A DNA stretch of 46,846 bases from Lachnospiraceae bacterium (lineage in GTDB: Bacteria > Bacillota > Clostridia > Lachnospirales > Lachnospiraceae). Both the position numbers and the translations under genes were made by a program. The DNA lies in NCBI GenBank assembly GCA_017935565.1, contig JAGBHK010000023.1, positions 1 through 46,846 of the forward strand. The letters run 5' to 3'. The notes below the pieces were generated by a model. The model was not told the DNA's origin. It ran no database searches and saw nothing but the letters and a program-made list of their open reading frames with translations. Positions 6,589-46,846 of this stretch are shown piece by piece. Every line of letters starts with the position of its first letter. Position 1 is the stretch's first letter.

Positions 6589-7929
6589 TTATTCATTTTC
6601 TTCTTGTTCTTTCTCTGGCAAAGTCATTCTTACCAAAGCTATGCTATTTTTTTCAACCGATAAAATATCAAATTGAATATTTTCAACTGTAACACTTGTT
6701 TTTTCATTGGCCTCAGGAATTTTCCCCATAGCATTGATTAATAAACCATTCAATGTGTCAAAATCCTCCTGCTTAAACGTCACTTCCAACTTGTCCGCAA
6801 TTTCAGCCAATGCTGTCATACCTTTTATAAGATAAACATTTTCTTTTTCGAGCACTATGTTATTTTCTTCAACATCATACTCATCCATAATATTTCCTAC
6901 AATTTCTTCTAAAATATCTTCCATTGTAAGAAGTCCCACTGTCTGTCCATATTCATCGACAACGATTTCCATATGGTTCTTTTCAGACTGCATTTCCTTA
7001 AATATATCATCTATATTTCTTGTTTCAGGAATAAACGCTGGTTTTCTGATACTTGCAATATCTTTGACCTTCTTTTCCTTCAATCCATTTCTATACTCTG
7101 AAATAACTTCCTTAATATGAATAATACCTATGATATTATCAATATTATCTTCCTCAACAACTGGAAATCTTGAATAATTGGCATTAATCATAAAATCTAA
7201 TGCATTTTTAATATTCTCATTACCATCAACATATATAATTTTATTTCTGTGAATCATAATGTTTGAGGCCTGCTTTTCATCAAGTTCGATGATGTTTGAA
7301 ATCATTTCCGCCTCTCGTTCCTCAAGAACACCTTGCTCATGACCTTCATTTACAATAGATATAATCTCCTCTTCTGTAACATTTTCATATGTTTCATTAG
7401 GGTCAATTCCAAATATTCTCAAGATAATATTTCCAAAGAATGTAATGACCCATGTAATTGGAGTTAATATAACCATTAAAAATATAGCAATATAACACAA
7501 ATTAAATGCTACTCCAAGACTATATTTGGCACCAATTTTCTTTGGAACTATTACACCTACTGACAAAAGCAAAAATCCAAGGTAAATTGCCAAAATTACA
7601 TTGGACAATGTAAGTAATACTTCTAATCTAAGCATTGTACCAAACTTTGTAAATACCCAGTCGTTGACGGTCGCAGCATATGTGTTCATCTGCCAAAATC
7701 CAACAAATATAGCTGTAGCAGTAGAAATAACCTGAATTGTATTAATGAGTTTATCAGGCTTTTCTATCATCTTTAAAATCTTTTTTGGTCGTTTTGAACC
7801 TTCATCAACTCGTTTTTCCAACTCATTTTCATTAATGTTTTTAAGCGCCTCCCCGTAGCTGTACATTATGGCATTAACCAAAATAAATCCTAAAAATACA
7901 ACTAACGCCTGTATGGGGTTTCCTTCCAT
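6589..7929 (-). CDS. CNNM/CorC (hemolysin C-like) membrane protein with CBS pair
   Basis: The protein has 446 residues. Residues 1-180 form a CNNM/DUF21 membrane domain with about four hydrophobic helices. Residues about 195-330 carry two CBS domains (EEEIISIVNEGHEQGVLEE, then the paired motifs around NYSRFPVVEEDN and MEIVVDEYGQTVGLLTMED). The C-terminal 80 residues match the CorC_HlyC domain. Relatives are implicated in magnesium or cobalt export, with CBS domains sensing nucleotides; the old name hemolysin is not informative. The ribosome-binding site AAGGAG is well placed. A TTGACA promoter with an 18-bp spacer lies upstream at 7976-8005, making this the first gene of the unit that continues to yebC and the HD-GYP gene. 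Confidence 0.9.
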   Translation of the reverse strand: MEGNPIQALVVFLGFILVNAIMYSYGEALKNINENELEKRVDEGSKRPKKILKMIEKPDKLINTIQVISTATAIFVGFWQMNTYAATVNDWVFTKFGTMLRLEVLLTLSNVILAIYLGFLLLSVGVIVPKKIGAKYSLGVAFNLCYIAIFLMVILTPITWVITFFGNIILRIFGIDPNETYENVTEEEIISIVNEGHEQGVLEEREAEMISNIIELDEKQASNIMIHRNKIIYVDGNENIKNALDFMINANYSRFPVVEEDNIDNIIGIIHIKEVISEYRNGLKEKKVKDIASIRKPAFIPETRNIDDIFKEMQSEKNHMEIVVDEYGQTVGLLTMEDILEEIVGNIMDEYDVEENNIVLEKENVYLIKGMTALAEIADKLEVTFKQEDFDTLNGLLINAMGKIPEANEKTSVTVENIQFDILSVEKNSIALVRMTLPEKEQEENE

Positions 7930-8480: not shown

Positions 8481-9668
8481 TTAAGTGGTTAACTGATAAT
8501 CGTCATCAAAATAATCTTTTCCACCTATTATCTCGCCATCAGAAATATATACTCTAGGTACTCTCTTACCAACATCACATATGAATTCGTAATTAAATGT
8601 TCCTGCCATCATAGAAACTTCTTCAACAGATAAAAATGCGCCATTATCCTCTCCAACAAGAGTAACTAAATCACCTTTTTTAGTTTCAATATCTGTAACA
8701 TCTACCATAAACTGGTCCATACAAACTCTACCTAAAATAGGCGCCTTCTTGCCGTTTATAAGAACATATCCTTTGTTTGATAAACTTCTAGGATAACCAT
8801 CACCATAACCAACAGGAATAGTTGCAATCCTCATCTTTTTATCCGCAACAAATGTTCCACCATAACTTACAGGAGTTCCTGCTTCAATTTCTTTTATATA
8901 TACAATATGACTCTTTAACTGCAACACAGGTTTTAATGAAACCCTATTTTTATCCACTTCATCAGAAGGATACAATCCGTATAATGAAATTCCAAGTCTC
9001 ACCGCGTCGTGATTTGCTTCTTTGATATCAATTATTCCAGCACTGTTTGAGCAATGCTTAATCCCTATCTCCACGCCTTTTTGCGCTAATTTTTCATTAA
9101 ACTCATCAAATCTTCTCATCTGAGACAATGCATTTGATTTATCATTTTCATCAGCCTTTGCAAAATGAGTAAAAATACCTTCTATTTCAATGTTTTCCAA
9201 TGCATTTATACGCACAATATCATCAATTGCCGCATCATCATCTTTAAATCCTATCCTGCTCATACCAGTATCAACTTTAATATGAACTTTAGCCACTTTT
9301 CCCATTTCTTTTGCGCATTTATTAATCAAAACTGCTGTTTCATATTCAAAAACAGCCATTCTAATATCGTATTTAATTGCACCCCTAATGCGTTTCTCAT
9401 AGGTAAATCCTAAAATAACTATAGGTTTAGTAATTCCATTTTTTCTTAAGTTAATGCCTTCATCAACTGTAGCAACTGCATATGCGTCAACTATGCTGTC
9501 GATTTTTTCCGCAACCGGCACAGCTCCATGACCATATCCATCCATTTTAATTACTGCACAAAGCGCAGTATCATCGTTTATATTTTTTCTTATATTAACT
9601 ACATTTTCATAAATATTATCAAGATTAACCTGACAATATACCCTGTAATATTTATCTAATAAATCCAT
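8481..9668 (-). CDS. alr: Alanine racemase
   Basis: Alanine racemase interconverts L- and D-alanine with pyridoxal phosphate and supplies D-alanine for peptidoglycan. The protein has 395 residues, normal for the family. Lys41 in AVIKMDGYGHGA is the cofactor lysine, and the catalytic Tyr is in VSYGGTFVADKK (about residue 270). VGYGDGYPR and ILGRVCMDQFMVDVT are the C-terminal beta-domain motifs. The gene lies 13 bp after nnrD/E and 106 bp before mazF on the same strand, an order reminiscent of the Bacillus alr-ndoAI-ndoA region. It is probably transcribed from the rex promoter region. Nothing in it is degenerate. Confidence 0.96.
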   Translation of the reverse strand: MDLLDKYYRVYCQVNLDNIYENVVNIRKNINDDTALCAVIKMDGYGHGAVPVAEKIDSIVDAYAVATVDEGINLRKNGITKPIVILGFTYEKRIRGAIKYDIRMAVFEYETAVLINKCAKEMGKVAKVHIKVDTGMSRIGFKDDDAAIDDIVRINALENIEIEGIFTHFAKADENDKSNALSQMRRFDEFNEKLAQKGVEIGIKHCSNSAGIIDIKEANHDAVRLGISLYGLYPSDEVDKNRVSLKPVLQLKSHIVYIKEIEAGTPVSYGGTFVADKKMRIATIPVGYGDGYPRSLSNKGYVLINGKKAPILGRVCMDQFMVDVTDIETKKGDLVTLVGEDNGAFLSVEEVSMMAGTFNYEFICDVGKRVPRVYISDGEIIGGKDYFDDDYQLTT

Positions 9669-9681
9669 TTTCTACTCCAAT

Positions 9682-11157
9682 CTATAACAAGGTTTCATTT
9701 ACACTCTCTGCTATATCAGATGCCATAACACCTGCATTGCCTAAACGAGTAGCTGCAATATCACCAGCAACACCATGTAAGAATACAGCATTTATCGCAG
9801 AATTGAAAGCACTATTATCTCTTGCATATAAACTTCCCATAATTCCAGCTAAGACATCACCGCTTCCCGCTGTTGCCATGCCGTCATTTCCTGATGTATT
9901 GATATATTTTTTACCAGTAACTCCGCAGGCAACTACTGTCCTTGCATCTTTTAGCACCACTGTTATATTATACTTATTTGCGAATTCTTCTGCAATACTA
10001 ATTATATTATTTTTTACCTCATATATGCTCTTCATAGTAAGGCGCGCCATTTCGCCTATGTGTGGTGTAATGATAACATTATTATTAAGTTTATCTTTTA
10101 AATATATATGCTCACTGATAATATTTAATCCATCTGCATCTATAACTATTTTCTTATCGCTATTTAATACTTGTTCAACAAGACTTACTGCACTCTGGCT
10201 TTTCCCAATACCAGGGCCTATCACAATACTATCCGCCCAGTTTATTTCATTTGATATATCAATATTCTCAAGCCCGTTATATGTGAACAAAATAGCTTCT
10301 GGTAACATTTTTTGCAACACCTCTCTGTTTTCGTTGCAAGTAACAATTTTAACCAATCCACTCCCCATTCTGTAGGCTGCCTTTGCGCATAAATACGCAG
10401 CTCCAGACATATTCATAGAGCCTGCTATAATAAGGATTTTACCAAATGTACCTTTATTGCCATTTGCATCTCTTCCTGGCATTGATAATTCTGTTTTGTC
10501 CATATACGTGATTGTATTGCAATTACCCTCGTACGCTATGCTTGGTATACCTATATTTGCAATAGAAACTCGTCCTGCATATGTATTTCCAGGCGCTAAT
10601 AACAAACCTATTTTAGCGTTAGAAAATGTAATTGTATGTTTCGCTTTTACTGCTATTCCCATAATATTTCCTGTATCAGAATCCACGCCTGATGGTACAT
10701 CTATAGACACAACTTCTCTTTGCAAATTATTAATACATTCAATAATTTCTCTGTACTTTCCAGTTATTTCGCGTTTCAAACCTATTCCAAATATGCCATC
10801 TACGATAACATCATATGCATCAAAATCTTCCCACATAGATACATATTCACCATCAAGATTGTCATATATCTCTTTTTGAACTGCAAACTCAGGTGTAGAC
10901 TTTGATTCATCTCCAATAATATAAACAGCGACTTTTCTATCTGCTACTTTGAGCATTCTAGCAACTGCAATACCATCTGCGCCATTATTTCCAACACCTG
11001 CAACCACCAGAATTTTTTTATCGTCACTGTAGTTTTCCATTAAAAAATTGCACAACGATAAAGCTGCTCTTTCCATTAATGTAATAGAAGGCAACTTTAT
11101 AGTGTTTATGGCATATTCCTCTATCTTTTTCATTTCATTTCCGGAAACAACTAGCAT
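9682..11157 (-). CDS. nnrD: Bifunctional NAD(P)H-hydrate epimerase / dehydratase
   Basis: The 491-residue protein repairs damaged NADH and NADPH hydrates. Residues 1-205 form the YjeF N-terminal epimerase domain (VAGVGNNGADGIAVARML, VDGIFGIGLKREI, SIDVPSGVDSDTG). Residues about 225-490 form the ribokinase-like ADP-dependent dehydratase (GTFGKILIIAGSMNMSGAA, then NTSGNDGMATAGSGDVLAGI). Both active domains appear intact. The gene starts 2 bp after the coiled-coil gene and ends 13 bp before alr. Its place in an operon led by rex, the NADH-sensing repressor, fits a link to nicotinamide cofactor state; that link is inference. Confidence 0.95.
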   Translation of the reverse strand: MLVVSGNEMKKIEEYAINTIKLPSITLMERAALSLCNFLMENYSDDKKILVVAGVGNNGADGIAVARMLKVADRKVAVYIIGDESKSTPEFAVQKEIYDNLDGEYVSMWEDFDAYDVIVDGIFGIGLKREITGKYREIIECINNLQREVVSIDVPSGVDSDTGNIMGIAVKAKHTITFSNAKIGLLLAPGNTYAGRVSIANIGIPSIAYEGNCNTITYMDKTELSMPGRDANGNKGTFGKILIIAGSMNMSGAAYLCAKAAYRMGSGLVKIVTCNENREVLQKMLPEAILFTYNGLENIDISNEINWADSIVIGPGIGKSQSAVSLVEQVLNSDKKIVIDADGLNIISEHIYLKDKLNNNVIITPHIGEMARLTMKSIYEVKNNIISIAEEFANKYNITVVLKDARTVVACGVTGKKYINTSGNDGMATAGSGDVLAGIMGSLYARDNSAFNSAINAVFLHGVAGDIAATRLGNAGVMASDIAESVNETLL

Positions 11158-12418: not shown

Positions 12419-12487
12419 TGGTTTTTTAATCCTCCAAATATAAAAAAAAATAACTATAATAAATAATTATAAACTTTTCCTAAAAGA

Positions 12488-12516
12488 TTGTCAATTTGTC
12501 CAATAACTATTTAAAA
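12488..12516 (+). promoter_or_regulatory. Weak promoter candidate for the ABC-F/CotH unit
   Basis: TTGTCA (12488-12493) is 17 bp from TTAAAA (12511-12516), in the very AT-rich gap between rex and the ABC-F gene. The -10 match is poor and other TTAAAA-like positions nearby are equally possible. Confidence 0.3.
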
Positions 12517-12570: not shown

Positions 12571-14481
12571 ATGATTTTATCATGTAATAATATATCTAAA
12601 AGTTTTGATGACACAAGTATTATATCAAATTGCTCATTCGTTATTAATGAAGGCGAAAAAGCTGCTATCGTTGGTATTAATGGCGCTGGTAAGTCTACTT
12701 TATTAAAGATAATTGTAGGTGAACTTGCCGCTGACGACGGTACAGTTGTTATTTCAAAAGGTAAAACTATTGGCTATTTAAGCCAGCATCAGGACATTAA
12801 CAATAATAACACTATTTATCAGGAAATGCTTTCTGTTAAACAACATATCATTGATATGGAAGATCGTATTCGTACTATGGAACAGCAGATGAATGGCCTT
12901 GAAGGCGATGCATTAACTGCACATATGAATTCCTATACTAATCTTGTTCATACATTTGAAGCACTTGATGGATATTCATACAAAAGCGAGATAAATGGTG
13001 TTTTAAATGGTTTAAGTTTTAAAGAGGACGAACATAATGCATTGGTTTCTACCCTCTCTGGCGGTCAACGTACGAGAGTTGCATTATGTAAGCTTTTATT
13101 ATCAAAACCTGATATCATACTTCTTGATGAACCAACAAACCATTTAGATATAGCTTCTATCACTTGGCTTGAGGACTTTTTAAGAAATTACAAGGGCACA
13201 GTCATTATCGTTGCCCATGATAGATTCTTCCTTGACCGCATTGTAACTAAGGTTATTGAAATAGATATGAGCAATGTACTTGTTTTTTCAGGAAATTATT
13301 CAGATTACTCAAGCAAAAAAGCTATGCTTCGAGATAATCTTATGAAAGCTTATCTCAATCAACAACGCGAGATAAAGCACCAGCAGGAAGTCATCGACAA
13401 ATTGAAATCTTTTAACCGTGAGAAATCCATTAAAAGAGCTGAAAGTCGTGAAAAAATGCTTGATAAAATTGAAGTTTTAGACAAACCTACTACTGCTAAC
13501 TCAAATATGCGCATAATGCTTACTCCTCAAAAAATAAGTGGCAATGATGTTCTTGATGTTTGCGGTTTAACTAAATCTTATGATAATCTTCTTCTATTTA
13601 ACAATGTTAACTTCCAGGTAAAACGTGGCGAAAAGGTGGCCATTATTGGTGCCAACGGAACTGGAAAAACTACTATTCTAAAGATTATCAACCAACTTGT
13701 AACACCTGATAAAGGTGATGTAAAGCTTGGTACAAATGTTGAAATTGGCTACTACGACCAGGAACATAATGTTCTTAATATGGATAAAAGTATTTTTGAT
13801 GAAATATCAGATGCTTATCCATATCTTACAAATACTGAAATTAGAAATGTTTTAGCAGCATTTTTGTTTACTGGAGATGATGTATTTAAACTTATAGGTG
13901 ATTTAAGTGGTGGCGAACGAGGTCGAGTTTCTCTTGCGAAGTTAATGCTTTCAAATGCAAACTTCTTAATTCTCGATGAACCTACAATCCACTTAGATAT
14001 AGAGTCAAAAGAAATTCTTGAAAATGCTATAAATAGTTATGAAGGCACGGTATTATATGTGTCTCATGACAGATATTTTATTAATAAAACTGCTACAAGA
14101 ATTCTTGATTTAGAAGGTCAAACATTGACTAATTATATCGGTAACTATGATTACTATTTAGAAAAGCATCCAGTATTGGCTCCTGTTGCTACTACTGTTG
14201 CTTCACAGGAAAATGTTTCAGTTTCAGATAACTCTGGCAAAAAGGATTGGCAGGCAATGAAGGAAGAACAAGCCATGCTTAGAAAGCGCCAAAATGATTT
14301 GAAGAAAACTGAAGATAAAATTGCTTCTATAGAGGCAGAAATTAACTTGCTTAATGAGGAAATGGCAAAAGAAGAAGTCTATTCTTCTCCTGCCGAATCC
14401 CTTAAGATACACAAAAAACAAACTATACTAAATAAAGAATTAGAAACATTATATGAATTATGGGATAGTCTAATGGAATAG
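12571..14481 (+). CDS. ABC-F family ATPase
   Basis: The 636-residue protein has two ATP-binding cassettes and no membrane segment, the layout of ABC-F ribosome-associated ATPases. Cassette 1 has Walker A GINGAGKST (35-43), signature LSGGQRTRVAL (about 163) and Walker B with LLDEPTNHLDI. A charged linker follows at about 250-300. Cassette 2 has GANGTGKTT (about 361), LSGGERGRVSLA and LILDEPTIHLDI; the usual Asn of PTNHLD is replaced by Ile. A C-terminal coiled coil lies at about 570-630. Relatives act on stalled ribosomes or protect them from antibiotics; which role applies here cannot be read from the sequence. The cotH gene starts 21 bp downstream. Confidence 0.92.
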   Translation: MILSCNNISKSFDDTSIISNCSFVINEGEKAAIVGINGAGKSTLLKIIVGELAADDGTVVISKGKTIGYLSQHQDINNNNTIYQEMLSVKQHIIDMEDRIRTMEQQMNGLEGDALTAHMNSYTNLVHTFEALDGYSYKSEINGVLNGLSFKEDEHNALVSTLSGGQRTRVALCKLLLSKPDIILLDEPTNHLDIASITWLEDFLRNYKGTVIIVAHDRFFLDRIVTKVIEIDMSNVLVFSGNYSDYSSKKAMLRDNLMKAYLNQQREIKHQQEVIDKLKSFNREKSIKRAESREKMLDKIEVLDKPTTANSNMRIMLTPQKISGNDVLDVCGLTKSYDNLLLFNNVNFQVKRGEKVAIIGANGTGKTTILKIINQLVTPDKGDVKLGTNVEIGYYDQEHNVLNMDKSIFDEISDAYPYLTNTEIRNVLAAFLFTGDDVFKLIGDLSGGERGRVSLAKLMLSNANFLILDEPTIHLDIESKEILENAINSYEGTVLYVSHDRYFINKTATRILDLEGQTLTNYIGNYDYYLEKHPVLAPVATTVASQENVSVSDNSGKKDWQAMKEEQAMLRKRQNDLKKTEDKIASIEAEINLLNEEMAKEEVYSSPAESLKIHKKQTILNKELETLYELWDSLME

Positions 14482-42534: not shown

Positions 42535-43458
42535 TTATGCTATCGCCAATTTCTTACCATTATAGCAATACACATTATCAGACAACACTTCCAAGTAATC
42601 GACTTCATTTTCATTGATTTCTTTTACCATACTTTTCATCTCTTCAATAGAAATATCCGTTTTAGGCACGACAATCACCTCATGTATACTACTTGGTAAC
42701 ACATAATACTCCCCTTGAAATTTCTCATAAAAATATTTAAGCACTGGCTCATACAAAATAACAGCCGCTCCTAAAGTCTTTTTACTATTGGTAATCACAT
42801 ACATTGGATATTCCGCATCAGCGGTTTCTTCAATTATTTGTTCGGCTTCTTCCCTACTAATACGACCATTTTCAATCATCTCTTCATATATTCTAATAGC
42901 CATGTCTTTAATATCACAAATCTCTACGTCCAACACCTCTATCATATTTTTGTAACCATCAAAAAACACCGTATTAAAATCGACCTTCCACATTTCAATG
43001 CAATCGTTTGTTACATTTGAAGTCATATATCCAATTTTCTCATCGTTCCATAATACATATGCGACAATTGCCAAATCATGAAACTTTCTATATGGTAATT
43101 TGCTAAGCATTTCCTTATTTCTTTCAATATTGACAAGTTTTAACATAACCTTGTCTTTAACCTGGTCATAATCACTTATGTCATCCATAGTCAAATTAAC
43201 CTTTTTTTCATATTTGAAATGTATTGCAATAATGTTATTAGCTATGTCTGTCAATTCAACACCTGCAACATACATATCATAAAAATCATCAAGGTATATT
43301 GTTGGTATAGCACCACTATATCCTCGTTCACCAATGGTTATCGCCACCAACTCTACTCCATTATTTTTTGTAACCTTATGAAGATTCACCTCATAATTTA
43401 CTTCCATTATGTCTCTTACAATTTTGAGTATCTCATTTTGAAATTCTAAATAGTCCAT
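42535..43458 (-). CDS. DUF5688 family protein
   Basis: The 307-residue protein matches the DUF5688 family, common and often multi-copy in Lachnospiraceae. Typical stretches are MDYLEFQNEILKIVRDIM, YLDDFYDMYVAG, NKEMLSKLPYRKFHDLAIV and the C-terminal MYVITNSKKTLGAAVILYE and YYVLPSSIHEVIVVP. It has no signal peptide or membrane helix. ATG 43458 has a GGAGG six bases upstream; the TTG one codon earlier is less likely. A strong promoter is 90 bp upstream. The function is unknown, and its neighbours give no clear hint. Confidence 0.88.
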   Translation of the reverse strand: MDYLEFQNEILKIVRDIMEVNYEVNLHKVTKNNGVELVAITIGERGYSGAIPTIYLDDFYDMYVAGVELTDIANNIIAIHFKYEKKVNLTMDDISDYDQVKDKVMLKLVNIERNKEMLSKLPYRKFHDLAIVAYVLWNDEKIGYMTSNVTNDCIEMWKVDFNTVFFDGYKNMIEVLDVEICDIKDMAIRIYEEMIENGRISREEAEQIIEETADAEYPMYVITNSKKTLGAAVILYEPVLKYFYEKFQGEYYVLPSSIHEVIVVPKTDISIEEMKSMVKEINENEVDYLEVLSDNVYCYNGKKLAIA

Positions 43459-43547
43459 CAATTTCCTCCATATACTTTAAATATTTTCAGAAACTATGAA
43501 CTTAAAGTTTTTATATAGATTTAAATTTAATGATTTAAGATATAAAT

Positions 43548-43576
43548 ATACTATAATATCTAACAATTTATGTCAA
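43548..43576 (-). promoter_or_regulatory. Promoter of the DUF5688 gene
   Basis: On the minus strand a perfect TTGACA (43576-43571) and TAGTAT (43553-43548) are 17 bp apart, about 90 bp before the start codon. Confidence 0.65.
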
Positions 43577-43601
43577 TGACTTTCTTCTTAGATTTTATAC
43601 G

Positions 43602-43639
43602 AAAATAGAGGTTGCTTCGCAAACTCTTCGCGCCTGAGC
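43602..43639. repeat. Partial copy of the multi-hairpin intergenic repeat
   Basis: This stretch matches 20286-20323 almost base for base (AAAATAGAG, GCAAACTCTTCGCGCC, GAGC), with a few single-base differences. Only the first hairpin of the longer copy is kept. It lies between the DUF5688 promoter and the terminator of the first surface-protein gene. Confidence 0.75.
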
Positions 43640-43672
43640 AAAAGAAAGAGGTACCTCTTATGAAGTACCTCT
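43639..43672 (-). terminator. Terminator of the leftmost surface-protein gene
   Basis: On the minus strand AGAGGTAC (43672-43665) pairs with GTACCTCT (43654-43647), followed by TTCTTTT. The same hairpin follows the other two paralogues. Confidence 0.7.
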
Positions 43673-43705
43673 AATAAACTTATTGTTTAATTTTGTTTAC
43701 TGAAA

Positions 43706-44518
43706 TTATTCAGCAACTGTTCTTCTCTTTAATACAACTACTACAGAAACTGCAGCTACTGCAAGAAGAATACCTACCATTGTAGAATCACCTGTATCTG
43801 GTGTTGTAGCGCCAGCGTTTGAACCAGCGTTTGTATTTGTGTCTGTTGTATTGTTATCTGTTGCGTTGTTATCTGTTGCGTTGTTATCAGCTGATGCTTC
43901 AACCTTTGCAACTGTTACATCCGATGTGTCACATGCAAAAAATACATATAAACCAGCACTTGTATCAACATCTGTTGTAGCTGTGTATGTAAAACCATGT
44001 CCATTTGCACCTGTAACAACATACTCTAAAGAAATACCTGTTGCTGTCTTAGAAATCTTTGCATCAATATGAGCATCCTTCATAACCGCAACTAAATCAT
44101 CCCATTTATCAATTGCACCCTTATCATCACCATTAACATTTTCTGTTGAGAAAACATCTTCTGAATCCCATGTTGTTGTGTAAGTAATAGCATTGCCGTC
44201 GACAGACTTGTTGTCTCCGCCGCCCCAGCCCCAGCTATCAGCACGAACTACGGCATATTCCTTATAGCCTTCGAAGTTATCTGCGCTTGGAGTTGTAGCA
44301 CCATCTGTTGCAACATTTACAAATACTGCACTAAGATTCTGATAGTTTGCACTACCACCCTTAACATCAATATCAAATTCTACAGTATCAGTAACTTCAT
44401 AACCTGGTGTCCATGCCGTCCACCAAGCACCTGTAATTGTGTCTGCTGCAAATGCACTTAATGCACTTGAAATAACCATTGTAGCTGCTAAAGCAACTGT
44501 TAAAAGTTTCTTCTTCAT
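43706..44518 (-). CDS. Cell-wall-anchored surface protein, tandem paralogue 1
   Basis: The 270-residue protein has a signal peptide (MKKKLLTVALAATMV..., cleavage after AFA at about 24), a beta-rich domain at about 28-205, a low-complexity Asn/Thr/Asp linker with NNATD repeats, and a C-terminal sortase signal TTPDTGD followed by a hydrophobic helix and KRRTVAE. The domain starts ITGAWWTAWTPGYEV and contains YAVVRADSWGWGGG; the aromatic and glycine content recalls carbohydrate-binding beta-sandwiches, but this is inference. The RAD-aromatic motif is shared with the other two copies. The sortase is not in this window. A leader of about 70 nt is nearly identical to that of paralogue 2. Confidence 0.85.
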   Translation of the reverse strand: MKKKLLTVALAATMVISSALSAFAADTITGAWWTAWTPGYEVTDTVEFDIDVKGGSANYQNLSAVFVNVATDGATTPSADNFEGYKEYAVVRADSWGWGGGDNKSVDGNAITYTTTWDSEDVFSTENVNGDDKGAIDKWDDLVAVMKDAHIDAKISKTATGISLEYVVTGANGHGFTYTATTDVDTSAGLYVFFACDTSDVTVAKVEASADNNATDNNATDNNTTDTNTNAGSNAGATTPDTGDSTMVGILLAVAAVSVVVVLKRRTVAE

Positions 44519-44597
44519 AATAAATAACCTCCGTTTTTTCTCGCCTTGTATGTATATTTTCTACATTAGGGAGTAAGCCGTAAGACATAGGTTATCA

Positions 44598-44630
44598 TAA
44601 AGAAAGAGGCACCTCTTATGAAGTACCTCT
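44598..44630 (-). terminator. Terminator between paralogues 2 and 1
   Basis: On the minus strand AGAGGTAC (44630-44623) pairs with GTGCCTCT (44612-44605), with one G-T pair, followed by TTCTTT. The conserved leader of paralogue 1 begins right after it, leaving little room for a separate promoter. Confidence 0.6.
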
Positions 44631-44663
44631 AATAAACTTATTGTTTAATTTTGTTTACTGAAA

Positions 44664-45470
44664 TTATTCAGCAACTGTTCTTCTTTTTAATACAACTACT
44701 ACAGAAACTGCAGCTACTGCAAGAAGAAGACCTACCATTGTAGAATCACCTGTATCTGGTGTTGTAGCGCCAGCGTTTGAACCAGCGTTTGAATCAGCAT
44801 TTGAATCATTATCAGCGTTATCACCGGCATTGTTGTTAGCATCATTATTTGTGTTTGAGTCATCGTTTGATGATGTATTATTTGTAAATGAAATATTTGA
44901 GAACTTTGCCTGATCACCGAACATTGTAAGTTCAATCTTATCTGGAACATCTACAGTACCAAATGAAAAATCAGCTTTAAACTCATGACCATCTTCAAAT
45001 TTTGCTGAATACTTAAAAGCGTCGCCTGTTCTTACTAAATTAATTTCCACATCAGAACCTACACAGTCCTCTAACCATTCTGCCCATTCTGCATCATCTG
45101 CACAAGCACCAGTCCATGTAGCTACTAATTTAGAATTAGCTGTCTCACCAGCAGCTGGGAATGTCTTACCAAATGTAGGACCATTTGTAAATGCGAACGC
45201 ATCTGCTCTAATGCTAAGGAAATCGTAATCTGCTGAATCACCTGTTCTAAACTCAATTACATAGTTTAACCAGTTAGATGCACCAACTGCATCAATTGTG
45301 AATTTGTATGTAACATCAAAATCACCTGTTAATTCTTCATCACCCGCATTGCTTGGCTTAGCCCAACCAGCTGAGTTGTCAAGAGAAGTAGCTGTTTCAC
45401 CGAATACAGAAAGTGCACTAGAAACAACCATTACTGCTGCTAAAGCAACTGTTAAAAGTTTCTTCTTCAT
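44664..45470 (-). CDS. Cell-wall-anchored surface protein, tandem paralogue 2
   Basis: The 268-residue protein has the same layout as paralogue 1: signal peptide ending near SVFG, a beta-rich domain (about 27-200) with the motif SIRADAFAF, an Asn/Asp/Ser-rich linker (NNDANNNAGDNADNDSN) and the sortase signal TTPDTGDSTMVG with a helix and KRRTVAE. The middle domain is clearly diverged from its neighbours, while both ends are almost identical, a pattern that suggests gene conversion or shuffling of ends. The 5' part (45393-45522) is the exact reverse complement of 46717-46846, the start of the fourth copy. The ligand of the middle domain is unknown. Confidence 0.85.
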   Translation of the reverse strand: MKKKLLTVALAAVMVVSSALSVFGETATSLDNSAGWAKPSNAGDEELTGDFDVTYKFTIDAVGASNWLNYVIEFRTGDSADYDFLSIRADAFAFTNGPTFGKTFPAAGETANSKLVATWTGACADDAEWAEWLEDCVGSDVEINLVRTGDAFKYSAKFEDGHEFKADFSFGTVDVPDKIELTMFGDQAKFSNISFTNNTSSNDDSNTNNDANNNAGDNADNDSNADSNAGSNAGATTPDTGDSTMVGLLLAVAAVSVVVVLKRRTVAE

Positions 45471-45548
45471 AATAAATAACCTCCGTTTTTTCTCGCCTTG
45501 TATGTATATTTTCTACATTAGGGAGTAAGCCGTAAGACATAGGTTGTC

Positions 45549-45582
45549 ATAAAGAAAGAGGTACCTCTTACGAAGTACCTCT
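45549..45582 (-). terminator. Terminator between paralogues 3 and 2
   Basis: On the minus strand AGAGGTAC (45582-45575) pairs with GTACCTCT (45564-45557), followed by TTCTTT, the same hairpin as after the other copies. Confidence 0.65.
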
Positions 45583-45615
45583 AATAAACTTATTGTTTAA
45601 TTTTGTTTATTGAAA

Positions 45616-46434
45616 TTATTCAGCAACTGTTCTTCTCTTTAATACAACTACTACAGAAACTGCAGCTACTGCAAGAAGAAGACCTACCATTGTAGAATCA
45701 CCTGTATCTGGTGTTGTAGAACCTGAGTTTGAATCAGCGTTTGAATCATTATCAGCGTTATCACCGGCATTGTTGTTAGCATCATCATTTGTGTTTGAAT
45801 CATCGTTTGATGAACCAAATGTTGCAGAAACGAGTTCCATCTTACCACCATCAGCACCAATCTGGAATGCAAGGTCTGAAGGAACGCCTTCTGAATATAC
45901 TAATGTATAAGTTTCTTTTGCAGATGCATCAGAAGCAAATGTAATATCAAATGTAACTGTGTTAGCATCTGTCTTCTTAGCAACAACTGTTACAGTTGTA
46001 TCATCTGTTAATGCGTGCCAATCAAAGTTAGTATCTGCCCAATCCCATGAGATTGTAGGTGTAATTGTAGGTACATTTGTACCTTCACCATATGTCCAAG
46101 AAAAAGCATCAGCTCTCATTGTAGCACCCTTAGTTGTTTCTGTAGCGATTGTTTCAACAACAAAGTTATCCCAAGTATCATATTCAGTACCGAACTTATC
46201 GCCATTACCATTGTCTACGCTATCTGTGAAAGCGTCATTCTTAAATACTACTGTAACACCTTCTTCGTTGATAGGGAATGTAACCCCTGTTCCAGCAGAA
46301 TTCCATGCTGCAGAACCGTCTGCTACTTTACCTGTAAAAGTTGTATCAGCTTCTACTAATTCTGCCATTGCAGAAAATGCGCTAGAAACAACCATTACTG
46401 CTGCTAAAGCAACTGTTAAAAGTTTCTTCTTCAT
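45616..46434 (-). CDS. Cell-wall-anchored surface protein, tandem paralogue 3
   Basis: With ATG 46434 the product has 272 residues: signal peptide (to about SAMA), a beta-rich domain at about 27-205 with TMRADAFSWTYG, a linker nearly identical to that of paralogue 2, and the sortase signal TTPDTGDSTMVG with a hydrophobic helix and KRRTVAE. The frame stays open for 27 codons upstream because a one-base deletion in the leader (GCCTTTATG instead of GCCTTGTATG on the plus strand) brings it into phase. That extension is the conserved untranslated leader, and the strong GGAGG belongs to ATG 46434. It heads the tandem array of three, and no good promoter pointing left was found upstream of it. Confidence 0.85.
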   Translation of the reverse strand: MKKKLLTVALAAVMVVSSAFSAMAELVEADTTFTGKVADGSAAWNSAGTGVTFPINEEGVTVVFKNDAFTDSVDNGNGDKFGTEYDTWDNFVVETIATETTKGATMRADAFSWTYGEGTNVPTITPTISWDWADTNFDWHALTDDTTVTVVAKKTDANTVTFDITFASDASAKETYTLVYSEGVPSDLAFQIGADGGKMELVSATFGSSNDDSNTNDDANNNAGDNADNDSNADSNSGSTTPDTGDSTMVGLLLAVAAVSVVVVLKRRTVAE

Positions 46435-46463
46435 AATAAATAACCTCCGTTTTTTCTCGCCTT
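46382..46463. repeat. Left arm of an 82-bp perfect inverted repeat
   Basis: This stretch, covering the leader end, ribosome-binding site and first codons of paralogue 3, is the exact reverse complement of 46740-46821 in paralogue 4. The 276 bp between the arms hold the consensus promoter. Confidence 0.9.
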
Positions 46464-46661
46464 TATGTATATTTGTTACATTAGGGAGTAAGCCGTAAGA
46501 CATAGGGATTAGCAATAGAAATATGTCGAAACAAGTTGAAGATTTAAATGTAAAAACAGAACATTAACGTGGGTTTAGGTTAGTAAAAGGACACTTTGGA
46601 TAAAATGCTGATTTGAATTATAAAAATAATGAATAATTTATTAAAAAATAATAAAAAAAAG
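46464..46661. other. Intergenic region between head-to-head paralogues
   Basis: Most of this AT-rich stretch has no reading frame, hairpin or repeat that I can support. Its left end (to about 46506) is the upstream part of the leader of paralogue 3. No TTGACA/TATAAT-like pair facing left was found, in contrast to the strong right-facing promoter at 46662. Confidence 0.6.
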
Positions 46662-46690
46662 TTGACAAGATTGTGATATGGATATATAAT
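46662..46690 (+). promoter_or_regulatory. Consensus sigma-A promoter facing paralogue 4
   Basis: TTGACA (46662-46667) and TATAAT (46685-46690) are both perfect and 17 bp apart. The transcript should start near 46697, giving a leader of about 72 nt before ATG 46769. It is the best promoter in the window and lies inside the segment bounded by the 82-bp inverted repeat. Confidence 0.9.
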
Positions 46691-46739
46691 ACAAAGGAAA
46701 TGAAAAAAGATGTATGCCTAATGTAGAAAATATACATAC

Positions 46740-46821
46740 AAGGCGAGAAAAAACGGAGGTTATTTATTATGAAGAAGAAACTTTTAACAGTTGCTTTAGC
46801 AGCAGTAATGGTTGTTTCTAG
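46740..46821. repeat. Right arm of the 82-bp perfect inverted repeat
   Basis: This is the exact reverse complement of 46382-46463. A longer stretch around it, 46717-46846, is also the exact reverse complement of 45393-45522 in paralogue 2, so the identity runs to the window edge. Confidence 0.9.
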
Positions 46822-46846
46822 TGCACTTTCTGTATTCGGTGAAACA
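46769..46846 (+). CDS. Surface protein paralogue 4, 5' part only
   Basis: Twenty-six codons are present before the window ends: the signal peptide MKKKLLTVALAAVMVV followed by SSALSVFGET, identical to paralogue 2 at both protein and DNA level. The leader has the same GGAGG nine bases before the ATG. It is in head-to-head orientation to the tandem array and is the only copy with a clear consensus promoter of its own. The rest of the gene, including its binding domain, lies outside the window. Confidence 0.85.
   Translation, partial: MKKKLLTVALAAVMVVSSALSVFGET

Follow-up and report, generated by a model that had tools for sequence, protein, structure and literature searches.

A promoter at the end of a contig of a Lachnospiraceae bacterium is probably switched among surface-protein cassettes by site-specific recombination, carried out by a large serine recombinase (LSR) whose own gene would be one of the slots. 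The half-sites, the core, the promoter, the terminator-like hairpins and the LSR gene are all present in the genome, and the same layout was found in a second species.

The window, meaning the whole stretch of DNA that was analysed, is 46,846 nucleotides long, and its right edge coincides with that of contig C40 (46,846 bp). The draft genome to which it belongs comprises 2.48 Mb in 45 contigs and is 81% complete.

Surface-protein genes, promoter and inverted repeat

Three paralogous genes for predicted surface proteins lie in tandem near the contig end. Their signal-peptide-like start with the leader and their tail are conserved, and their middles are divergent. In the features below, X and Y denote left half-sites, Z and W right half-sites and P the promoter.

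43647..43672, minus strand: terminator-like hairpin following paralogue 1 (stem of 11 pairs, T tract; no X after it)
43706..44518, minus strand: paralogue 1, predicted surface protein
44564..44591, minus strand: X/Z junction of paralogue 1 (core CCTAATG at 44564-44570; exact 28-mer)
44605..44630, minus strand: terminator-like hairpin following paralogue 2 (stem of 11 pairs, T tract)
44664..45470, minus strand: paralogue 2, predicted surface protein
45516..45543, minus strand: X/Z junction of paralogue 2 (core CCTAATG at 45516-45522; both flanks found at two contig ends)
45557..45582, minus strand: terminator-like hairpin following paralogue 3 (stem of 11 pairs, T tract)
45616..46434, minus strand: paralogue 3, predicted surface protein with signal peptide (by eye), variable middle and TPDTGD tail
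46382..46463, no strand: left 82-bp perfect arm, in the leader and signal-peptide codons of paralogue 3
46479..46506, minus strand: X/Z junction of paralogue 3 (CCTATGTCTTACGGCTTACTC and core CCTAATG at 46479-46485; exact 28-mer)
46486..46716, no strand: shortest switchable segment (231 bp) between the two cores, with P and its upstream region
46662..46690, plus strand: promoter P, TTGACA-17-TATAAT (12/12), the only Y-type promoter found
46697..46723, plus strand: Y half-site and core CCTAATG (46717-46723), start of the Y/Z junction, by site alignment
46724..46846, plus strand: start of 'paralogue 4', with Z half-site, leader and 26 codons from the ATG at 46769; same sequence as paralogue 2
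46740..46821, no strand: right arm (82 bp, perfect) of this inverted repeat

A hairpin with a T tract follows each paralogue, and transcription from paralogue 3 should therefore not pass through paralogues 2 and 1. Read-through from paralogue 3 into these two, as proposed in the preliminary description, is thus unlikely, each paralogue having a terminator-like hairpin and an X/Z slot of its own.

None of the three paralogues had a Pfam match above the cut-off, and no informative match to the surface proteins was obtained among solved structures (best E 0.54). The TPDTGD tails matched the NCBIfam family EF0750_LPXTG below the cut-off only, with 18-25 of 47 bits. For the sortase family PF04203 there were 0 matches in the 81%-complete draft, and 3 of 14 control genomes were positive. 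Paralogue 3 gave 14 matches when searched against its own draft, with no further close copy outside C40; tail-like matches were located on C32, C25 and C3 (37-49%). The surface proteins may have a role in adhesion or in phage-receptor variation. A stretch coding for the signal peptide recurs, at 81-84% identity and without the X half-site, at G000 C38:35882-35957 and C25:8703-8770, and a gene for a DUF5688 protein lies beside the end of the array at 42535-43461 of the window.

The 82-bp perfect inverted repeat described earlier (46382-46463 and 46740-46821, with 276 bp between the arms) is real and continues imperfectly to 104 nt at 93%. At such a length chance is not a realistic source of the repeat, but paralogy is. 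The leader recurs at the 5′-ends of the three tandem genes, the copies of paralogues 1 and 2 being direct repeats, and since the same leader is found there, the repeat alone is what two divergent members of a gene family would give. On this comparison the 82-bp arms are simply the common 5′-ends of paralogous genes, and the informative feature is the short junction outside them.

The TTGACA-17-TATAAT promoter facing right was likewise found as described, with a 12/12 match, and is the only 12/12 site within 43400-46846, where weaker matches also occur. A second perfect match lies at 12466-12494 on the minus strand, and four matches carrying no more than one mismatch were present in the window, compared with a shuffle mean of 1.52, a count of 4 being reached in 5 of 100 shuffles; the promoter match alone is therefore modest evidence. 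The statement that no comparable leftward promoter precedes paralogue 3 holds for 12/12 matches, but a weaker TTAATA-16-TATAAT (10/12) is located at 46644-46617. This leftward match counts against a single-promoter switch; the scan that yielded it returned 10 sites against a shuffle mean of 13.9, which is not significant.

Half-sites around a conserved core

Paralogues 1-3 each begin with X/CCTAATG/Z, the promoter side reads Y/CCTAATG/Z, and contig C24 starts with X/CCTAATG/W, so that a putative conserved site with a CCTAATG core and X or Y as its left half precedes every gene of the set. Read in gene direction, X ends in CCTATGTCTTACGGCTTACTC and is followed by CCTAATG and then by Z and the leader in paralogues 1, 2 and 3. 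Y, on the promoter side, ends in GGAAATGAAAAAAGATGTATG, which is unrelated to X, and is followed by CCTAATG and the same Z.

The 28-mer made up of X and the core occurred four times in the genome when up to 3 mismatches were allowed, and all four occurrences were exact, three of them within the window and the fourth on contig C24 (52-79). An Rfam scan of the window at the gathering threshold found one tRNA only and nothing accounting for the 28-mer. In the 20 nt preceding CCTAA, the four X halves were mutually identical (20/20), against 5/20 between X and Y. Z was identical (20/20) among paralogue 1, paralogue 2 and P, agreed in 16/20 positions with paralogue 3, the leader of which carries a one-base shift, and in 8/20 with W. 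A single Y was present in the draft. On both sides the change in similarity fell within CCTAATG at all five junctions of this genome.

A large serine recombinase behind the same half-site

Beyond W on C24, 76 bp after the core, an ORF of 532 aa (L007:156-1754) carries the domains Resolvase, Recombinase, Zn_ribbon_recom and DUF4368 and is thereby a large serine recombinase (Pfam E-values of 8.9e-21 for Resolvase, 1e-23 for Recombinase and 1.2e-12 for the zinc ribbon). No equivalog cut-off of NCBIfam was reached, the best being CcrB with 98.8 of 900 bits. The best match among solved chains was TnpX (2mhc, E 2.7e-35), covering the catalytic domain only, followed by YokA (E 3.2e-19) over nearly the full length. 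A promoter-like match in front of the gene, ATGGCA-18-TATAAT (10/12), starts inside the core and is weak, with 2 sites found against a mean of 1.5.

PMC5311408 describes TnpX and TndX as natural LSRs that work in both directions. Phage LSRs recombine attL with attR only in the presence of a directionality factor and do not recombine other pairings (PMC3783163). Given such limits on pairing for phage-type enzymes, an exchange of X/Z with Y/Z would need a bidirectional enzyme or two steps; either a bidirectional enzyme or a route by way of Y/W would serve.

The same layout in a second genome

In a genome of the same genus (G001) the whole set is located on one 82.9-kb contig with one Y' and four X', one of the latter before an LSR gene whose product is 51% identical to the LSR of C24. 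The sites were X'/W' at 7180, X'/Z' at 9404, 10463 and 12900, and Y'/Z' at 10683. The Y'/Z' site carries a TTGACA-17-TATTAT promoter, and the distance from TATAAT or TATTAT to CCTAA is 26 nt in both genomes alike. Y agrees with its G001 counterpart in 14/20 positions, and in G001 the change in similarity falls within CCTAA. The inverted repeat is here 128 nt long at 96%, with 219 nt between the arms, and the locus was assembled in one state, with the promoter before a real gene. Three of the four members of the surface set match Laminin_G_3.

Two further observations were made at this locus. The X site at L069:12900 has the core TCTAA in place of CCTAA and is possibly a locked slot. A PDDEXK_2 (Rpn-like) gene flanks the switch in two inverted copies (84%) at L069:7323-8180 (minus) and L069:11826-12755 (plus), the 3′-ends of which abut two X half-sites, that of the LSR and that of the surface gene at 12900.

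About the point between CCTA and A, the X'/W' site of G001 displayed a dyad score of 12/20 and Y'/Z' a score of 10/20, the latter also at three neighbouring centres. The X/W site on C24 scored 8/20 at the same point, and Y/Z of C40 peaked at 10/20 five bases off. A score of 12 was attained by 0.28% of the null centres and a score of 10 by 2.8%. The scan covered 18 centres for every one of the ten sites, so that chance alone should yield about 0.5 scores of 12, and what speaks for the dyad is then solely its coincidence with the core. Y/Z and X/W have little in common beyond the core (5/20 on the left, 8/20 on the right), and as a working guess X/W may be attB-like, Y/Z attP-like and X/Z a hybrid.

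Proposed switch

The notion of an invertible promoter choosing among the paralogues, already put forward in the preliminary description, is well supported; its exchange point, its use of RecA and its read-through are not. As we picture it, one strong promoter ends in half-site Y, and promoterless surface-protein cassettes would each open with Z, with X in front when silent. The LSR would cut in the CCTAA core and swap Y for X, inverting the DNA between them. One gene would then be preceded by Y/Z (on) and the rest by X/Z (off), and such inversions would proceed reversibly in living cells. The LSR gene behind W would have a slot of its own, at present X/W; a Y/W state, if it exists, would place the promoter before the recombinase.

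The switch might moreover reset itself. In the Y/W state the LSR would be fired, the promoter would be passed to one X/Z cassette, and the LSR would then stay silent until leaky expression sets it off again. With direct X/Z sites on both sides of the tandem cassettes, the LSR could also excise and insert whole promoterless cassettes, like a serine-recombinase counterpart of the integron for surface proteins. Self-resetting and cassette exchange taken together we propose only tentatively, the joint reading being rather doubtful.

Two contig ends that match the flanks of one junction

As the contig stops at 46846, 'paralogue 4' consists of only 26 codons. From the core onwards this end (46717-46846) repeats the 5′-end of paralogue 2 (45393-45522) in inverted orientation, without a mismatch over 130 nt. 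When compared ungapped over 130 nt with the three junctions, it had 0 mismatches to paralogue 2, 17 to paralogue 1 and 76 to paralogue 3, the last number being inflated by the one-base shift. With identity to paralogue 2 over 130/130 nt, the contig end probably does not represent the separate fourth gene for which it had been taken.

Contig C24 starts with 79 nt identical to the reverse complement of 45516-45594, which is the tail before the paralogue-2 junction, and then continues into W. Here the mismatches numbered 0 to the paralogue-2 junction, 3 to the paralogue-1 junction and 36 to the paralogue-3 junction, so that the 79-nt match separates the first two weakly (0 vs 3). For an exchange between P-Y/W-LSR and paralogue 3-X/Z-paralogue 2, these two ends and the intact paralogue 3-X/Z-paralogue 2 are three of the four junctions, all found in one assembly; the fourth, P-Y/W, was not in it. 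The overlaps at the two ends are unequal (130 vs 79 nt), which is not what one plain k-mer break would give. The simplest reading would be that the sampled population held both inversion states and that these were assembled together, one with P before the LSR and the other with P before paralogue 2 and with paralogue 3 facing the LSR. The linkage of C24 to C40 is here proposed from the logic of the sequences.

The main rival is a fixed arrangement with a hybrid fourth paralogue that is missing from the draft. P would then drive a real paralogue 4, followed by X/W and the LSR, and switching would be rare or over, the half-sites being traces of the past. The grammar of the half-sites would be identical in such a case, the single state of G001 agrees with it, and exact paralogue repeats can end contigs just as an 81%-complete draft can miss a short one. 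The arrangement nevertheless needs a gene in which the first 130 nt equal paralogue 2 and the last 79 nt equal the tail of paralogue 3. Those ends are the two flanks of one junction, where the paralogues differ from each other, and no such gene body turned up in the draft. We regard a fixed arrangement as unlikely.

Probable exchange at the core

The exchange had previously been placed within the 82-bp arms and ascribed to RecA or to an enzyme encoded elsewhere. Similarity changes, however, at CCTAATG (46479-46485 and 46717-46723), outside the arms. The left halves X and Y are dissimilar and the Z halves alike (16-20/20), with the break at the core, which argues for site-specific and against RecA exchange. 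A flip of the promoter by RecA-type homologous exchange between arms of 82 to 130 bp, long enough though they are, would be expected to scatter the breakpoints, whereas ten junctions in two species change at the same core of 5 to 7 bp and the LSR gene bears the same half-site; this explanation is very improbable. A candidate enzyme, the LSR on C24, is present in the genome, its gene following the same half-site.

A different recombinase could also be supposed to drive the switch, the half-site at the LSR being incidental. The genome has two Resolvase and five Phage_integrase matches, so that candidates exist in the five tyrosine recombinases and in another serine recombinase on C15. None of the matches is on C40, no Phage_integrase is on C24 and none of the candidates is beside the C24 site, and the nearest relative of the C24 LSR accompanies the same half-sites in G001, leaving this supposition very improbable as well. 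It is also very improbable that there is no switch, the repeat being divergent-gene paralogy or a palindromic contig end wrongly produced in assembly. Divergent paralogues do yield inverted repeats, and the contig ends inside one. G001, however, which was assembled separately, carries the same set of half-sites, promoter and LSR at a distance of many kb from either end of an 82.9-kb contig, and assembly software would hardly connect P with Z by way of a 7-bp core if no reads supported it.

Distribution and relatives of the recombinase

A survey of LSR loci (108 tested of 109 given) was made for two signs, recurrence of the stretch directly preceding the LSR gene (in G001 the X half-site of 25 nt) and an inverted repeat close by with a loop of 100-700 nt. 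Both were found at the G001 locus only, which was present twice (L069 and L098). Another 20 loci had one sign, 2 of them the inverted repeat only and 18 a match of 15-19 nt only. The system was seen in two genomes only.

With a strict threshold, LSR matches were obtained in 50 of 397 genomes of the family, at most 3 candidates being scored per genome, and all except the LSR of C24 itself were at most 41% identical; G001 was apparently absent from this sample. In a tree of 37 rows thinned from 106 proteins, the LSRs of C24 and G001 grouped as fully supported sisters (100/100). In the neighbourhoods of four sampled relatives, of which 10 proteins were scanned, three had relaxase, NikA or MobC-type genes near the LSR and the fourth had none among the proteins covered, and the mobilisation-type genes of these relatives suggest that the LSR may derive from a mobilisable element. 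No mobilisation genes were noticed among the translated neighbours of the C24 and G001 LSRs, part of which were scanned. Viral contigs contained seven relatives, 32-47% identical, and an exact search of these contigs for the X half-sites of both genomes found 0.

We also noticed that 15-17 nt containing GAGGAAGTCCCTTT, just upstream of LSRs of about 33% identity, recur inverted about 1.7-6.1 kb away at the loci L150, L152, L155, L157, L158, L163, L166, L169, L171, L175 and L176; these repeats may be attachment sites of another element. At L208 (G006:C6:68137-72959), in a genome of the same genus, three large serine recombinase matches are found in tandem.

Discussion

LSRs are known mainly as integrases and transposases. 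If the proposed switch is true, gut-type bacteria have recruited LSRs to change their coat in a multi-way manner, and expression of the recombinase itself is one of the settings. Site choice and direction in these enzymes could then be studied with profit on such a natural multi-way LSR switch. The half-sites allow an exact and cheap test of switching.

In the sap S-layer system of Campylobacter fetus a promoter is moved among surface-protein genes with common 5′-ends, for which homologous recombination is needed. The predicted switch is alike in the moved promoter and in the common 5′-ends, but its breakpoints are confined to the short core at five sites of this genome and five of G001 and are not spread along the arms. 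Integrons hold tandem promoterless cassettes, each with a recombination site (attC), one resident promoter and the tyrosine integrase IntI alongside. Here too there are tandem promoterless cassettes, one promoter and a recombinase gene, but the recombinase is a serine recombinase, each cassette has a terminator-like hairpin and the promoter would invert. Hin and Mpi are small enzymes of about 200 aa with symmetrical sites, in contrast to the 532-aa LSR and the four kinds of half-site found here. Both are described as serine recombinases that switch expression by DNA inversion (PMC5903667, PMC8987985). TnpX and TndX of clostridial mobile elements move transposons, whereas the LSR is here predicted to switch genes.

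No LSR case was contained in the accessible parts of a phase-variation review (PMC11868660) and an inversion survey (PMC5903667), and in PMC11892184 'serine' has 0 occurrences. Among the matches listed from the open-licence literature, the titles and the beginnings of the abstracts named no LSR that chooses a surface-protein gene with one promoter.

Closest in its predicted working is the vpma system of Mycoplasma agalactiae, in which one promoter serves otherwise silent surface genes through inversion by an adjacent tyrosine recombinase (PMC2268961). The sites proposed for vpma and for vsp of M. bovis lie in 5′ untranslated regions (PMC2268961). The likeness, one promoter for several otherwise silent surface genes, extends to vsp and to vsa of M. 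pulmonis. The vpma recombinase is a tyrosine enzyme of the lambda-integrase family encoded beside the locus, whereas the recombinase found here belongs to the unrelated class of the large serine recombinases and is not of the tyrosine (Xer-type) kind. In this genome, furthermore, two unlike left half-sites (X and Y) occur, and a putative slot for the promoter is taken by the recombinase gene itself.
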